From the NCBI RefSeq assembly GCF_014196425.1, contig NZ_JACIDR010000001.1, forward strand, positions 806,001 through 870,000: DNA of 64,000 nucleotides, written 5' to 3'. This document shows positions 45,880 to 53,438 of the stretch, one piece after another. Position numbers and translations under genes: made by a program. The notes beneath the pieces were generated by a model. It ran no database searches. It was not told the origin of the DNA and saw only the letters and a list, made by a program, of their open reading frames with translations. This stretch comes from Hansschlegelia beijingensis (GTDB taxonomy: Bacteria > Pseudomonadota > Alphaproteobacteria > Rhizobiales > Methylopilaceae). Within the stretch, counting starts at the first letter, position 1; each line of letters opens with the position of its first letter.

Positions 45880-46359
45880 ATGCGACCCCAGCCGGCCCGC
45901 TCTTTCGTGGCCAAACCGGCCGACGTCGAGAAGAAGTGGGTGGTGATCGACGCCAAGGGCCTGGTCGTGGGCCGGCTGGCTTCGCTCATTGCGCTTCGTC
46001 TCCGCGGCAAGCACAAGCCGTCCTTCACGCCGCACGTCGACGACGGCGACAACGTCATCGTGATCAACGCGGCCCAGGTCGCGTTCACGGGCAAGAAGCG
46101 CGAGGACAAGTCGTACTTCTGGCACACCGGCTATCCGGGCGGCATCAAGGAGCGCAAGGCGCACCAGATCCTCGACGGGCGCTTCCCCGAGCGCGTGATC
46201 GAGAAAGCCGTGGAGCGCATGCTTCCGCGCGGCCCGCTCGGCCGCAAGCAGCTCGGCAACCTGCGGGTCTACGCCGGCGAAAGCCACCCCCATGAGGCCC
46301 AGCAGCCGGTCGCGCTCGACATTGGCGGCCTCAATCGCAAGAACGTGCGGAGCGCTTGA
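45880..46359 (+). CDS. rplM: 50S ribosomal protein L13
   Basis: 159-residue L13. The canonical [20 protein letters not shown] (residues 12-31), [20 protein letters not shown] and [20 protein letters not shown] are all present. The alphaproteobacterial N-terminal extension is a few residues longer than usual ([11 protein letters not shown]). It is the first gene of the rplM-rpsI pair with a 2-base gap, and its leader holds two strong hairpins. Confidence 0.96.
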
Positions 46360-46361
46360 TC

Positions 46362-46841
46362 ATGGCCGAGAACATCCAGTCCCTCGGCGAACTCGGCGGC
46401 GCCCTTAACGGCGGCCAGCCGGACGCCCCGAAATACGTCAAGAAGGTCGACCAGTTCGGCCGCGCCTACGCCACCGGCAAGCGCAAGGACGCGGTCGCCC
46501 GCGTCTGGATCCGTCCCGGCTCCGGCAAGGTCACGGTGAACAAGCGTTCGATCGAGGTCTACTTCGCGCGCCCCGTGCTGCGCATGATCCTCGAGCAGCC
46601 GCTCAACGTCGCGAACCGCAAGGGTCAGTACGACATCACCGTCACGGTCGCGGGCGGCGGGCTTTCGGGTCAGGCCGGCGCGGTGCGCCACGGTCTGTCG
46701 AAGGCGCTGACCTACTTCGAGCCGGAGCTGCGCGGCGTCCTCAAGAAGGGCGGCTTCCTCACCCGCGACAGCCGCGTGGTGGAGCGCAAGAAGTACGGCC
46801 GCGCCAAGGCGCGCCGGAGCTTCCAGTTCTCCAAGCGCTGA
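46362..46841 (+). CDS. rpsI: 30S ribosomal protein S9
   Basis: 159-residue S9 with an N-terminal extension of about 35 residues, as common in alphaproteobacteria. Core motifs are [20 protein letters not shown], the [20 protein letters not shown] loop and the C-terminal [18 protein letters not shown] reaching the decoding site. The ATG at 46362 is used; a TTG six bases earlier is unlikely. Confidence 0.96.
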
Positions 46842-46932: not shown

Positions 46933-49900
46933 CTAAGCGCCCGCGATCACCGCCACCACGTCGCCGGCGCGCACGGTGCGCCCCTGCCGGGCGCGCAGGC
47001 TCACGATCCTGCCGGCGACGGGGGCGGAGATCTCCATCTCCATCTTCATGGCCTCCACGACCACGATCGGCTGACCGGCGGCCACCTCGTCGCCTTCCGC
47101 CACGAGCAGCTTCCAGACGTTTCCAGTCATGTGGCTCGGCGCCGCCGTGCAGCCCTCCGGAACCGCCTCGTCGCTCCGCGACGGCTCGGTCCCCGCCTCG
47201 CTGACGAAGCTGTCGAGGCCGCGCGCCTTCCAGTCGGCGCGCTCGGTCTCGAAGGCGGCCTGCCGGCTTCTCTGGAAGGCGTCGATGCTTTCGGCGTTGT
47301 CGGACAGGAACCGGGCGTAGTCACGGTACGAGAACGGGCTGTCCTCGATCCGGACCTCGTAGCGGCCGTGCGGGAAGGCGTCCCGCATCTCCAGTAGCTC
47401 CTGCTCGTCCACCGGGAAGAACCGCACGCGATCGAAGAAGCGCAGCAGGTAAGGGCGTCCCGGTTGGAAGGCCTTCGTCACGCGCCAGCTGTTCCACATC
47501 TGGATCGTGCGCCCGAACAGCTGGTAGCCGCCGGGCCCCTCCATTCCGTATACGCACAGATAGGCGCCGCCGATGCCGACGGCGTTCTCCGGCGTCCAGG
47601 TTCGGGCAGGATTGTATTTGGTGGTCACCAGCCTGTGGCGCGGGTCGACCGGGGTCGCGACCGGCGCGCCGAGATAGACGTCGCCGAGGCCGAGCACGAG
47701 ATACTCGGCGTCGAACACGATGCGGCGCACGTCCTCGATCGAGCCGAGCCCGTTGATGCGGCGGATGAACTCGATGTTGTCCGGGCACCAGGGAGCGTCC
47801 GGCCGGACGAGCTCCTGATATTTGCGCATCGCAAGCCGGATCTGCGGGTCGTTCCACGATAGCGGCAGCCAGACCGTGCTGCTCGGCACGGTCACGTCTT
47901 CGGGCGCGGGCAGATCCCTCTCGATGCGCGTCAGCGCGTCGAGGAGGCGCTCGACGGGCAGGGTGGCGCTGTCGAAATGCACCTGCAGGGACCGGATGCC
48001 CGGGGTGAGATCGAGGATCCCCGGCATCTTCTCGGCGGCGAGCGCCTCCGCCAGGACATGCACGCGCATCCGGAGCGCGACGTCGAGCGCCATCGGCCCG
48101 TATTCGACGAGCAGATTGTCGTCGCCCGCCCGGCGATAGACGACCCGTGTCGGCCCGTCCTCGCTCATGCCGAGGATCGGGCTCGGGATGTCGCATGCGC
48201 GGCGGATCGAAGGGCAGGCGAGGCCGTGCGGCGTGAACCGCACCCGGTCGCCTGGCCTCAGTTGCCCCGCCTTCCACAACTCGTCGCGCGCGATCACGAC
48301 GGGGCAGACGAAGCCGCCGAGGCTCGGCCCGTCGGGGCCGAGGATGATCGGCATGTCTCCGGTGAAATCGAGAGAGCCCACCGCATAGGCGTTGTCGTGA
48401 ATGTTCGACGGATGCAGCCCGGCCTCGCCGCCGTCCGGCCGCGCCCAGCGGGGTTGCGGGCCGATCAGCCGGACTCCGGTGCGGTCGCTGTTGAAGTGCA
48501 CCTCGTAGGTCGCGCCGAACAGGTCGACGATGTCGGCGTCCTGGAAGAAGTCCGGCGCGCCGTGCGGGCCCGACCTGACGCCGATCGTCCAGTCGCTCGT
48601 CAGCTCGGGCCGCTCGTCGGCTCGCGCGGCGCGCGGCTCGCCTTCCGGCGGAAGCGCGTCGATCTTCAGCATGTCCCCGGTCTTGAGAGCGCCCTGCGCA
48701 TTGCCGCCGAAGCGGCCGAGCATGAAGGTCGATCTGGAGCCGAAGGCTTCCGCCGCCTCGATCCCGCCGCGCACCGCGAGATAGCCGCGCTGACCGGGAC
48801 CGGATACCCGGCCGAGCGCGAGGGTCGATCCGGCCGGAGCCAGAAACGGCGCGAAGCGGGGCGCAGGCGCGCCGTCGAGCGTCGCCTGCATGTCGGCGCC
48901 GCCGAGCGCCACGATGGCCTCGCGGTGGAACTTCAGGGTCGGTCCGCTGACGGCGCACTCCAGCCCCGGCGCGCCCTCCGGATTGCCGACCAGCCTGTTG
49001 GCGAGGCGGAACGAGCGGTCGTCCATCGGTCCCGAGGGCGGCACGCCGACATCCCAAAGCCCCAGACGCCCCGGCCAATCCTGCACGCTGGTTTGCGCGC
49101 CCGGCGTCAGCACCTCGATGGCGCGCGGCGTGAACGGGAACGTCTTCAACGCGGCCGTCCAGACCTCGCCCGAGCGCAACAGATCGGACGCTGCGATCGC
49201 GCGCAGATAGTCGAGATTGGTTTCGATCCCGAGGAGAGTGGTGTCGCTCAAAGCCGCGGCCAGCTTCGCGAGCGCCGCCGTCCGATCCTCCCCGTGAACG
49301 ATCACCTTGGCGAGCATCGGATCATACCAGGGCGTCACCTCGGCCCCGGTCTCGACCCAGCCGTCGACCCGCACGTCCTCAGGAAACGCGACCTTCGTCA
49401 GCAGGCCGGTGGACGGGCGGAAATCGGCCTGCGGGGTTTCGGCGTAGATCCGCGCCTCGAACGCCGCCCCCTTTGCGACGAGCTCTTCAGGCGCGGGCAG
49501 GGTGAGTTCGCCGGCCGCCTGCCTCACCATCCACTCGACGAGGTCGACCCCGAACACGGCCTCGGTGACGGGATGCTCGACCTGCAGCCGCGTATTGACC
49601 TCGAGGAAGGAGAAGTCCTGGCGCGCCACGTCGTAGATGAACTCGACGGTCCCGGCGGACTCGTAGGCGACGGCCTCCCCGAGCGCGACCGCCGCGGCGT
49701 GGAGCCGCGAGCGCACGGGCTCCGGGAGGTTCGGCGCCGGCGTCTCCTCGACGACCTTCTGGTTGCGCCGCTGGAGCGAGCAGTCGCGCTCGCCGAGCGC
49801 CACCACGCGGCCCCGCCCGTCACCGAAGATCTGCACCTCGACATGCCGGGCGGTCGCCACGAAGCGCTCGAGATAGACCCGCGCGTCGCCGAAACTGGCG

Positions 49901-50463
49901 CCGGCCATCCGCTGCACCGCATCGAAGCGCTGGCGCAACTCCACAACGTCCTGGCAAAGCTGCATGCCGATGCCGCCGCCGCCTGCGGTCGACTTCAGCA
50001 TCACCGGAAAGCCGATCGCCTCGGCGGCGGCGATCGCCTCATCGGCGGATCCAAGCAGCCCCGATCCCGCCAACAGGGGCACGCCGGCGCGCTGCGCGAT
50101 CTCCCGGGCCGTATGCTTCAGTCCGAAGCCGCGCAGATGCTCCGGCCGCGGCCCGATGAAGACGATTCCGTTTGCGGCGAGGCGCTCGGCGAACGCGGCG
50201 TTCTCGGACAGGAACCCGTATCCGGGGTGAACGGCATCCGCGCCTGTCCGGAGGCAGGCTTCGATGATGGCGTCGATGTCGAGATAGCTTTCGCGGGCGG
50301 GGGCGGGCCCGACCCGCACCGCCTCGTCCGCCTCCAGCACCGGCCGCGTGAACCGGTCCGCATCCGAATAGACCGCGACGGACGCGATCCCGAGCTTGCG
50401 GAGCGTTCTGACGATCCGGCCGGCGATCTCGCCCCGGTTCGCGATCAGGACCTTGTTGAACAT
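46933..50463 (-). CDS. Biotin-dependent guanidine/urea carboxylase
   Basis: 1176-residue multidomain carboxylase. Residues 1-450 are a biotin carboxylase (FNKVLIANRGEIAGRIVRTL, ATP-grasp loop KSTAGGGGIGMQ, ERDCSLQRRNQKVVEETPAP). Next are the two carboxyltransferase halves, AHS2-like (EVLTPGAQTSVQDWPGRLGL, VGVPPSGPMDDRSFRLANRL) and AHS1-like, then a C-terminal biotinyl domain with the biotin Lys in VVVEAMKMEMEI. It is called urea carboxylase by length and order. The guanidine-I riboswitch heading the operon, and the two DUF1989 genes, indicate that guanidine carboxylase is the more likely activity. Allophanate hydrolase is not fused or adjacent. Confidence 0.93.
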   Translation of the reverse strand: MFNKVLIANRGEIAGRIVRTLRKLGIASVAVYSDADRFTRPVLEADEAVRVGPAPARESYLDIDAIIEACLRTGADAVHPGYGFLSENAAFAERLAANGIVFIGPRPEHLRGFGLKHTAREIAQRAGVPLLAGSGLLGSADEAIAAAEAIGFPVMLKSTAGGGGIGMQLCQDVVELRQRFDAVQRMAGASFGDARVYLERFVATARHVEVQIFGDGRGRVVALGERDCSLQRRNQKVVEETPAPNLPEPVRSRLHAAAVALGEAVAYESAGTVEFIYDVARQDFSFLEVNTRLQVEHPVTEAVFGVDLVEWMVRQAAGELTLPAPEELVAKGAAFEARIYAETPQADFRPSTGLLTKVAFPEDVRVDGWVETGAEVTPWYDPMLAKVIVHGEDRTAALAKLAAALSDTTLLGIETNLDYLRAIAASDLLRSGEVWTAALKTFPFTPRAIEVLTPGAQTSVQDWPGRLGLWDVGVPPSGPMDDRSFRLANRLVGNPEGAPGLECAVSGPTLKFHREAIVALGGADMQATLDGAPAPRFAPFLAPAGSTLALGRVSGPGQRGYLAVRGGIEAAEAFGSRSTFMLGRFGGNAQGALKTGDMLKIDALPPEGEPRAARADERPELTSDWTIGVRSGPHGAPDFFQDADIVDLFGATYEVHFNSDRTGVRLIGPQPRWARPDGGEAGLHPSNIHDNAYAVGSLDFTGDMPIILGPDGPSLGGFVCPVVIARDELWKAGQLRPGDRVRFTPHGLACPSIRRACDIPSPILGMSEDGPTRVVYRRAGDDNLLVEYGPMALDVALRMRVHVLAEALAAEKMPGILDLTPGIRSLQVHFDSATLPVERLLDALTRIERDLPAPEDVTVPSSTVWLPLSWNDPQIRLAMRKYQELVRPDAPWCPDNIEFIRRINGLGSIEDVRRIVFDAEYLVLGLGDVYLGAPVATPVDPRHRLVTTKYNPARTWTPENAVGIGGAYLCVYGMEGPGGYQLFGRTIQMWNSWRVTKAFQPGRPYLLRFFDRVRFFPVDEQELLEMRDAFPHGRYEVRIEDSPFSYRDYARFLSDNAESIDAFQRSRQAAFETERADWKARGLDSFVSEAGTEPSRSDEAVPEGCTAAPSHMTGNVWKLLVAEGDEVAAGQPIVVVEAMKMEMEISAPVAGRIVSLRARQGRTVRAGDVVAVIAGA

Positions 50464-50580
50464 TTGCGGGCGGTTCCGATGGGCGGGGGGAGGCGCACGA
50501 AATCCTGTGGCGGGCGGTCCTCTGCGAGGAGCGGCGTCCGCCGGCGAAGCCGCGGTCGAGGCTTGAACCCGAGCGAGGCG

Positions 50581-51261
50581 TCAGGCGCTCGACGGATCGA
50601 AGATCAGCACCTGCACCGGCGACGGGTCGAAGCCGTTGCAGGGGTTGTTGATCTGCGGGCAGTTCGAGATCACGCAGAGCAGGTCCATCGTGGCGAGCAC
50701 GTCCACGTAGTCGCCCGGGGCCGAGACGCCGTCGACAATCGCAAGCGCGCCAGTAGGTTCGATCGGGACGTTCATGAAGAAGTTGATGTTGGGCACGACA
50801 TCGCGCTTGGTCATGCCGTGCTTGGAGACCTCGATGACGAAGTTCTCGCGGCAGGCGTGCATGAAGCGCGTCTGATGACCGAACCGGACGGTGTTCGCCT
50901 CGCAGGAGCAGGCGCCCGCGGAGGTGTCGTGCCGGCCGCAGGAGTCCGCGATCACCACGCCGAGCACGCTGCCCTGGTTCGAGATCAGGCGCGTTCCGGC
51001 CGAGACGTATGACGCGCCCTGATCCAGGATGGTGTCCTGCGCGCTGTAGCGCTCTCCATGGTCGTGGGCGTTGTAGAAGAGCGTGTCGACGGCCTGGCAG
51101 CCCTGCAGGTCGACGATCCGCAGGATCTGTCCCTTCTCGACGAGCCCCGACCAGGGCCGGTTGGCCGGAATCGTGAAGTCGTAGATCGCCTGCCCGGGAT
51201 CGAGGCCGACGGGCGCTGCGATGAAGGGGGAGGGTCGCCCGGAGAGGGAGGTCGGCTGCAT
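50581..51261 (-). CDS. DUF1989 urea carboxylase-associated protein; candidate carboxyguanidine deiminase subunit (shorter)
   Basis: 226-residue DUF1989 protein of the UAAP type. It contains GSVLGVVIADSCGRHDTSAG and the Cys-rich ACSCEANTVRFGHQTRF, with the conserved D-S-C-G-x-H-D and a His that could bind metal, and CNGFDPSPVQVLIF at the C-terminus. Proteins of this pair have been shown in guanidine-degrading bacteria to form the carboxyguanidine deiminase CgdAB, which converts carboxyguanidine to allophanate. The second DUF1989 gene lies 10 bases upstream, and the carboxylase lies 117 bases downstream; all three read in the same direction. Which subunit is CgdA or CgdB is not decided here. 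Confidence 0.88.
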   Translation of the reverse strand: MQPTSLSGRPSPFIAAPVGLDPGQAIYDFTIPANRPWSGLVEKGQILRIVDLQGCQAVDTLFYNAHDHGERYSAQDTILDQGASYVSAGTRLISNQGSVLGVVIADSCGRHDTSAGACSCEANTVRFGHQTRFMHACRENFVIEVSKHGMTKRDVVPNINFFMNVPIEPTGALAIVDGVSAPGDYVDVLATMDLLCVISNCPQINNPCNGFDPSPVQVLIFDPSSA

Positions 51262-51271
51262 CTGGCTCTCC

Positions 51272-52105
51272 TCAGCGCGCGCGCAGATAGCGGTCGGTGT
51301 TCTCGAAGCCGCGCACGGCCTCGGCGGTCGCGGTCCGGCACAGATCGTCGGGACCGGCTTCGGGAAGCCGATGCACGATCAGCTCTATCTCGCCGGGCTC
51401 ATGCGCTGCGCCGGGCGCGAGCGGGTGAGGGCAGTTCGACACCGCGACCAGAAGGTCGACCTCCGCCCGCAGGTCGACGAAGTCCCCTGGCTGGACGACC
51501 CCGGGCCGGAAGGCCACACGCCCGCTCTCGTCGTGGACCACCGGCGCGAAGAGCGTGAGCACCGGCGAGATGTCGCGCGGGCCGAGACCGAACTTCGAGG
51601 CCGAGAGGATCATGTTCTCGCGCGTCGACCGCAGGCCGGGGTCCCCATGCTTCTTGAGGTTCGACGCGGGCGTCGAGCCGCCGACGACGGCGTCATGGGC
51701 GCCGCAGCTGTCCTCGACGATCGACATCAGCGCGCGCCCCATGTCGGAGAACAGCACGCGCCCCTTCCGCAGCTCGGTCGTCCACTGGATCTTGATCGTG
51801 TCGGCGCTGTTGTAGCGCTCGGACGGATCGGCCGCGTTCCAGAAGAACAGCGAGACGCCGGGCGTGCCGGAGACGTTGAGCACGCGCAGCGCTTCGCCGC
51901 GCATCACCGCCTCCGCCCAATACCAGCCGCCCGGAACAGTGATCCGCTCGCGCACGGCGGACGGTTCAATCGGGGCGGCGTCGCGTGGCGTGAGGGGCGG
52001 CAGCGTCCTCGGCGCGCTTGTCTGGCCCTCGGCCTTGAGCTGTTCGTAGCTTCGGCGGCGCTCCGCGATGAGCGCGGACTTTTCCTGGGTGGGATCGCTT
52101 GGCAT
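51272..52105 (-). CDS. DUF1989 urea carboxylase-associated protein; candidate carboxyguanidine deiminase subunit (longer)
   Basis: 277-residue DUF1989 protein, the partner of the one downstream. The N-terminal 45 residues are a helical extension absent from the shorter partner (ALIAERRRSYEQLKAEGQ). The core has GGWYWAEAVMRGEALRVLN, FFWNAADPSERYNSADTIK, the motif VEDSCGAHDAVVGG and HESGRVAF-type strands. The ATG at 52105 has GGAG seven bases upstream; the frame is open to 52159. It is the first coding gene behind the guanidine-I riboswitch, whose 3' end is 81 bases from the ATG. Confidence 0.88.
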   Translation of the reverse strand: MPSDPTQEKSALIAERRRSYEQLKAEGQTSAPRTLPPLTPRDAAPIEPSAVRERITVPGGWYWAEAVMRGEALRVLNVSGTPGVSLFFWNAADPSERYNSADTIKIQWTTELRKGRVLFSDMGRALMSIVEDSCGAHDAVVGGSTPASNLKKHGDPGLRSTRENMILSASKFGLGPRDISPVLTLFAPVVHDESGRVAFRPGVVQPGDFVDLRAEVDLLVAVSNCPHPLAPGAAHEPGEIELIVHRLPEAGPDDLCRTATAEAVRGFENTDRYLRAR

Positions 52106-52186
52106 AGCTGAGCTCCGCTTCCGAAACGTCGTCAGACCTCGGAAGTCGGCGCGGACCATCGCGGCGCCTGTTCCAGGCCCTTGAGG

Positions 52187-52285
52187 TCTCCCGGGATTTT
52201 GCCCCGCCGTGTCCCTGCCGGATGTCTCCCGGCAAGGCGGCAGCTCTCGGACCAGCCGTCTGGATCAGACGCGGAACCCTAGCCG
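52187..52285 (-). ncRNA. Guanidine-I (ykkC) riboswitch
   Basis: Read on the minus strand the leader has the three near-invariant ykkC blocks in the right order: CTAGGGTTCCG (52282-52272), CTGGTCCGAGAG (52258-52247 region) and ACACGGCGGGGCAAAA followed by TCCCGGGAGA, ending at 52187. These three blocks define the guanidine-I riboswitch, which turns genes on when guanidine binds. A TATCAT -10-like hexamer lies at 52307-52302, giving a transcript that would begin right at the riboswitch. The nearest gene is the first DUF1989 gene, 81 bases on. Confidence 0.92.
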
Positions 52286-52370
52286 CCAACTCAGTGCGTC
52301 GATGATAGAACGACCCTTCGGATAAGCCGCAGCCCAAAGAAACGGCATGGCGCGGAAATTGGCGGCGCCC

Positions 52371-53438
<1,068 letters not shown>

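Follow-up and report, generated by a model that had tools for sequence, protein, structure and literature searches.

A guanidine-I riboswitch ahead of a likely guanidine carboxylase operon in Hansschlegelia beijingensis, with partner genes elsewhere in the genome and a guanidinase in congeners

Which substrate is handled by a biotin-dependent carboxylase that carries the family label "urea carboxylase" and stands behind a leader of the ykkC type? The question is raised by a 64,000-nt stretch of the Hansschlegelia beijingensis genome (contig NZ_JACIDR010000001.1, positions 806,001 to 870,000 of the forward strand; hereafter "the window", whose own coordinates are used throughout), in which a three-gene operon lies behind such a leader on the minus strand. 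A first-pass annotation, made from the letters alone, had proposed a guanidine carboxylase pathway, and comparative analysis now supports this at the sequence level: the aptamer, the gene families and two aspartates of the carboxylase (Asp699 and Asp928) make it very probable that a guanidine-I riboswitch here governs a guanidine carboxylase operon of three genes, with its hydrolase and transporter unlinked.

A guanidine-I aptamer and three operon genes

The aptamer occupies 52186–52293 (minus strand) and matches the guanidine-I (ykkC) family of Rfam over its full length (RF00442, model positions 1–107 of 107; 83.5 bits, gathering score 63; E 2e-13). The first-pass annotation had placed a ykkC leader at 52285–52187 from conserved blocks, which are indeed present in the sequence, and had proposed the covariance model as a check; the leader passes it. 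The invariant blocks of RF00442 are common to all 20 aptamers that we aligned, the window's included (L114, a near-copy of L113, was omitted). The 3.66-Mb source genome yields two matches at E up to 0.001, and of 14 control genomes searched in the same way just one (Bacillus subtilis) gave a match to the family, which makes chance an implausible source of the match.

Behind the aptamer, all on the minus strand, follow a DUF1989 protein of the UAAP1 family (51272–52105, open frame up to 52159; TIGR03425, 252.7 bits, PF09347), a DUF1989 protein of the UAAP2 family (50581–51261; TIGR03424, 320.3 bits, PF09347) and the carboxylase (46933–50463; TIGR02712, 1826 bits), each above its NCBIfam cut-off (205.95, 284.7 and 1304 bits, respectively), as the first-pass annotation had described them. 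The carboxylase (1176 aa) comprises biotin carboxylase, CT_A_B, CT_C_D and biotinyl domains, with the motif EAMKM at the last of these. The first gene more likely starts at ATG 52105 than at ATG 52159, since a GGAG (52116–52113) stands 7 nt upstream of the former and the latter reads CTG in one congener (G016; it is kept as ATG in G009 and G010). The two DUF1989 genes are adjacent and include one member of each family, which we take to be the two subunits of the carboxyguanidine deiminase CgdAB. This assignment is by family membership, and the criterion in the part of PMC11410670 available to us is clade placement. At its 3' end the operon converges, tail-to-tail, with the genes for ribosomal proteins L13 and S9 (45880–46841, plus strand). 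Elsewhere in the source genome, which has four DUF1989 matches altogether, one such domain (G000:C1:2588-3094, locus L104) lies inside a long open frame (840 aa), whose length could fit a trimethylamine N-oxide demethylase.

As to the substrate, the accessible parts of two papers use Asp at Kluyveromyces lactis positions 1330 and 1584 as the criterion for a guanidine carboxylase (PMC11410670), and state that Asp at the specificity site goes with guanidine and Asn with urea (PMC12186494). When the window's carboxylase is aligned to 5i8i (a urea amidolyase by title, and from K. lactis by its numbering and the gene name of 3va7), Asp699 stands opposite Asn1330 and Asp928 opposite Asp1584, so that the Asn of a true urea carboxylase is replaced by Asp and the second Asp is present. 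This is the carboxyltransferase comparison that the first-pass annotation had called for, and it bears out its suspicion that the usual label hides a guanidine substrate. Each of the 87 carboxylases that we aligned (our own, those of 80 related loci and those of six family genomes) has equivalents of both aspartates. On these residues, the enzyme should be named guanidine carboxylase.

A pathway in three places, and its rivals

Judging from the known families, guanidine would bind the leader and turn the operon on, the carboxylase would convert guanidine, bicarbonate and ATP to carboxyguanidine, and the two DUF1989 proteins would jointly deiminate this product to allophanate. The operon includes neither an allophanate hydrolase nor transporter genes, and thus cannot alone take guanidine to ammonia. 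Both functions are encoded elsewhere. On contig 3, a second guanidine-I switch (86.4 bits) precedes genes for a TIGR03427 substrate-binding protein (546.5 bits, cut-off 333.9), a permease and an ATPase, followed on the other strand by a MocR-type regulator; this ABC transporter most likely serves for import. On contig 7, an intact frame encodes an allophanate hydrolase (TIGR02713, 784 bits, cut-off 511), the most likely enzyme of the last step; no Rfam match was found at this locus within a 13.9-kb stretch.

Both surroundings hold further genes. Past the transporter operon (L018:13246-16390) lie a nitrilase-family carbon-nitrogen hydrolase, a radical-SAM protein and more small genes, a set that resembles a Nit1-type cluster, and near the hydrolase (L007:2199-6654) we recognized by eye two Ku-like frames and a LigD-like frame, as in end-joining repair.

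In the 80 related loci (the best 80 of at least 583 matches in named genomes), the carboxylase is usually in fuller company. Both DUF1989 genes accompany it in 77 loci, the other three ending short upstream, and an allophanate hydrolase lies beside it in 70, with three of the ten misses ending short downstream. A close relative of the transporter binding protein is found in 45 loci, and both DUF1989 genes, hydrolase and binding protein occur jointly in 40. A guanidine-I match at E up to 0.001 was detected in 57 loci (59 matches, two loci having two), with a covariance model built from family sequences that included that of Hansschlegelia plantiphila. The window departs from the complete operon in having its hydrolase on another contig. 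Among the matches listed, H. plantiphila comes closest of the named relatives (its carboxylase shows 83% identity), and hydrolase and binding protein are both absent within 9 kb of its operon.

The unlinked hydrolase also has a history of its own. In a GTDB family sample of 18 genomes, 13 of them from the window's genus (G000 being the source genome), a hydrolase above cut-off is present in nine of the 12 other genus genomes; six of these have no carboxylase, so that within the genus the two enzymes are not coupled. In G011 the hydrolase belongs to a run of genes that further comprises a biuret amidohydrolase (NF050097, 415.6 bits against a cut-off of 370), a second, weaker relative of that enzyme, an AtzE-family amidase and an ABC transporter, and inspection indicates a similar run in G010. 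In a tree of hydrolases (48 of the 80 loci were taken and 38 yielded a frame above 300 bits; 13 further genomes were added), our own and nine congener copies form one group (100/100), apart from 41 carboxylase-linked copies. The simplest reading of this tree and these neighbours is that carboxylase users of the genus rely on a hydrolase of a lineage tied to biuret breakdown.

How firmly, then, can the operon be assigned to guanidine? Were the carboxylase a genuine urea carboxylase, the operon would serve urea breakdown and the switch would be incidental, for which one may cite the curated TIGR02712 name, "urea carboxylase", and the allophanate hydrolase encoded in the source genome. However, the specificity site holds Asp rather than Asn, two DUF1989 partners and a guanidine aptamer lie directly upstream, and the genome is already equipped with three urease alpha-subunit genes that exceed the cut-off (on G000:C1 and C3), and we consider a urea operon highly improbable. 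Equally slight, in our estimation, is the chance that the operon serves substituted guanidines such as methylguanidine rather than free guanidine. The nearest named relative, H. plantiphila (Methylopilaceae), is methylotrophic. Methylguanidine demethylation by genes of a guanidine carboxylase operon is described in the part of PMC12508155 that we could consult; however, no dioxygenase or lyase gene was seen from the switch to the operon end, and the guanidine-I class is said, in the accessible part of PMC11410670, not to recognize metabolites bearing a guanidino group.

A third alternative keeps the guanidine carboxylase and alters the last step, with allophanate passing mainly through urea to urease and the unlinked hydrolase being a relic of biuret breakdown. 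The biuret amidohydrolase and AtzE-family amidase beside the G011 hydrolase, the grouping of our own hydrolase with congener rather than carboxylase-linked copies and the three ureases all fit this scheme, but the hydrolase is intact and far above its cut-off (784 vs. 511 bits), which suggests that selection keeps it, and the decay of allophanate to urea in the cell is a putative step. We regard this route as unlikely, if less so than the two preceding ones. Against the guanidine carboxylase pathway as we propose it weigh the composition of the 87 carboxylases, which are closest relatives with K. lactis as the only Asn example and no bacterial urea carboxylase for contrast; the equivalog status of the NCBIfam name just cited; and the unlinked hydrolase, with no Rfam family found at its locus, so that its co-induction is a presumption.

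Even so, the assignment to guanidine corrects three labels in the source genome ("urea carboxylase", "urea amidolyase associated protein" and "putative urea ABC transporter"). Riboswitch-controlled guanidine carboxylase genes are well described, to judge from the accessible parts of PMC11410670 and PMC12186494, and the locus is a known type of system with an unusual dispersed layout and a clean exchange within the genus.

Carboxylase and guanidinase within the genus

The carboxylase is above cut-off in four of the 13 genus genomes (G000, G009, G010 and G016), and a ureohydrolase 91–100% identical to that of L154:8474-9676 is found in exactly the other nine, with no genome having both or neither. 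In the four carboxylase genomes, nothing above 35% identity to this protein was detected, the best match in the source genome being 29%. The L154 protein scores 540 bits to 7esr/7oi1 and 523 bits to 9fek, as against 170 bits or less to other ureohydrolases. We take these entries, titled "agmatinase 2", to be the Synechocystis guanidinase Sll1077 and the Nitrospira inopinata guanidinase, respectively. The Thr, His and Trp given as marks of guanidinase in the accessible part of PMC11410670 are present in eight of eight congener copies read (that of G014 was left out).

The guanidinase is itself embedded in a riboswitch-led context. It lies 3' of switch-led transporter genes in seven of the nine guanidinase genomes; in G017 no transporter separates it from the switch, and in G014 the contig breaks off soon past the ATPase and the guanidinase lies on a different one. 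The gene maps of congener loci were made with a simple frame picker and tblastn. A binding protein 77–80% identical to that of the source genome stands behind a switch in nine congeners, while G009 and G010, which lack a second switch, have only more distant binding proteins (53% and 64%), and in G017 there is no binding protein. In the carboxylase genome G016, the transporter operon runs from binding protein through permease and ATPase to HupE but lacks the guanidinase and a histidine-rich gene between the last two; no remnant was found at E 1e-3. The rpoB trees place G016 beside G007 (support 99/98 for protein, 100/100 for DNA), which makes this sister pair a case of one transporter operon minus its guanidinase, with the flanking genes kept.

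On the same trees (rpoB is partial in G008 and could not be located in G004 and G005, neither of which belongs to the genus), the carboxylase and guanidinase states require at least three changes, and well-supported branches alone force two. Speaking against an exchange, the clustering of these labels on the rpoB trees is no better than shuffled (180–191 of 500 shuffles are as low), and two or three independent events may lie behind the four-to-nine split.

In the carboxylase tree (47 of the 80 loci plus seven further genomes), the four genus carboxylases form a single group (SH-aLRT 100), together with an identical H. plantiphila copy, and fall inside the alphaproteobacterial set. The three other genus enzymes are 81–83% identical to that of the window, compared with 91–95% for the corresponding rpoB. 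We therefore did not adopt a recent transfer of the operon into the genus, and an ancestral presence with reciprocal loss explains the single group and the two identity ranges equally well. The tree further pairs G010 with G016 (SH-aLRT 95, quick search), whereas rpoB pairs G010 with G009 (88/89 for protein, 100/100 for DNA), a conflict that could reflect transfer within the genus.

The four carboxylase operons lie in differing surroundings (frames inspected by eye). Downstream (3') of S9, an agmatinase-like gene is found in G008, G009, G010, G011, G014, G015 and G017, and by coordinates in G016 too; other genes take this place in G006, G007, G012 and G013. In the source genome, a same-strand ureohydrolase match lies beyond the carboxylase operon, ~19 kb farther along and no longer within the window, which against the congener adjacency places the operon at or close to a rearrangement point.

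It is tempting to speculate that, within one genus, the ATP-dependent carboxylase pathway and the nickel-dependent guanidinase pathway are exchanged for one another under the control of a single riboswitch family, strictly exclusively in 13 genomes and with at least two changes on the tree, carboxylase users relying on the biuret-lineage hydrolase; taken as a whole, we would give this scenario even chances. The part of PMC11410670 available to us reports a mixture in comammox bacteria as well, most genomes carrying the guanidinase and two the carboxylase. In a limited search of titles and abstract beginnings, we found neither the genus-exclusive distribution, nor the in-place loss in G016, nor the biuret-lineage hydrolase, and literature naming Hansschlegelia and guanidine dealt, judged likewise, with other subjects. 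The four carboxylase and nine guanidinase genomes amount to a natural experiment among 13 relatives, in which the cost of ATP versus nickel in guanidine use could be tested. Overall, the finding is sound and mostly ordinary, with a useful comparative twist.

Leader folding and comparison with known systems

How the leader might act on the operon is suggested, with low confidence, by predicted folds that point to control at the ribosome site. In the minimum-energy fold, CTGAGTT at the 5' edge of the aptamer (52288–52294, minus strand) pairs with AGCTCAG overlapping the probable Shine-Dalgarno sequence of ATG 52105, and four of 200 shuffles fold equally well; the stretch concerned, GGAGCTCAG (52108–52116, minus), combines that probable Shine-Dalgarno sequence (52116–52113) with the predicted CTGAGTT partner (52114–52108). 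The seven pairs of this helix, also seen in a consensus fold, are kept in all four operon leaders of the genus, with one pair changed on both sides in G016. A second candidate helix joins the 3' tail of the aptamer, AGACCTC (52183–52189, minus), to GAGGTCT (52134–52140, minus), a possible anti-aptamer element: this is the best complement in the window's leader, and 2% of 300 shuffles reach it (one of 21 leaders scored, uncorrected).

Several observations count against switching by these helices. For the three other operon leaders of the genus, the best alternative helix does not stand out from shuffled sequences (fractions 0.66, 0.45 and 0.16). A helix of this kind does not vary among all 11 leaders of the transporter/guanidinase type, and thus yields no evidence from covariation there; in seven of these 11 it is not under 5% of shuffles. 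The four-leader consensus fold is without net covariation support (covariation term +1 kcal/mol), and both folds show the aptamer helices and a covered ribosome site simultaneously, so that they do not explain how guanidine would free the site. Moreover, guanidine-I switches usually act on transcription, according to the accessible part of PMC12186494. An intrinsic-terminator model is unsupported too, as a terminator-like hairpin is absent between the aptamer and the first gene.

Two further RNA observations concern the leader's neighbourhood and its family. Upstream, a cobalamin riboswitch (53156–53337, minus, 89 bits) stands ahead of a gene for a BluB-type 5,6-dimethylbenzimidazole synthase, whose longest frame (52371–53378) overlaps it; as the BluB match starts at residue 112, the true start is probably further in, near 53045. 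Among the family genomes, weak guanidine-I-like RNAs occur in L124, L125 and L126 (G006, G003 and G016; 41–53 bits, below the cut-off of 63), those of G006 and G016 directly 5' of an open frame that by eye resembles an EamA/DMT-type permease. In these two the near-invariant block CTGGTCCGAGAG reads CTGGACCGAGCG, and such RNAs might represent a variant aptamer for a different ligand; at E up to 0.001, none was found in the source genome.

Set beside known systems, the window's carboxylase is homologous along its length to the urea amidolyase/urea carboxylase of K. lactis (PDB 3va7, 5i8i) and differs from it in having Asp699 for Asn1330. The K. lactis enzyme has its allophanate hydrolase fused to the carboxylase, in contrast to the unlinked gene here. 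A further close counterpart is the guanidine carboxylase pathway, consisting of guanidine carboxylase, CgdAB and allophanate hydrolase, for which the part of PMC11410670 available to us gives Pseudomonas syringae DC3000 as the model organism; the window shares with it the gene order deiminase, deiminase, carboxylase and the specificity aspartates. Unlike the 40 of 80 surveyed loci in which all genes lie together, the operon stands without hydrolase and transporter, the transporter having a separate guanidine-I switch elsewhere and the hydrolase coming from a different lineage. The guanidinase (as in Sll1077 and N. inopinata) is by contrast a nickel enzyme of the ureohydrolase family, and is not found in the source genome (29% at best), but where it occurs under a guanidine-I switch the ligand class is the same, and the congeners share the family of the transporter operon.

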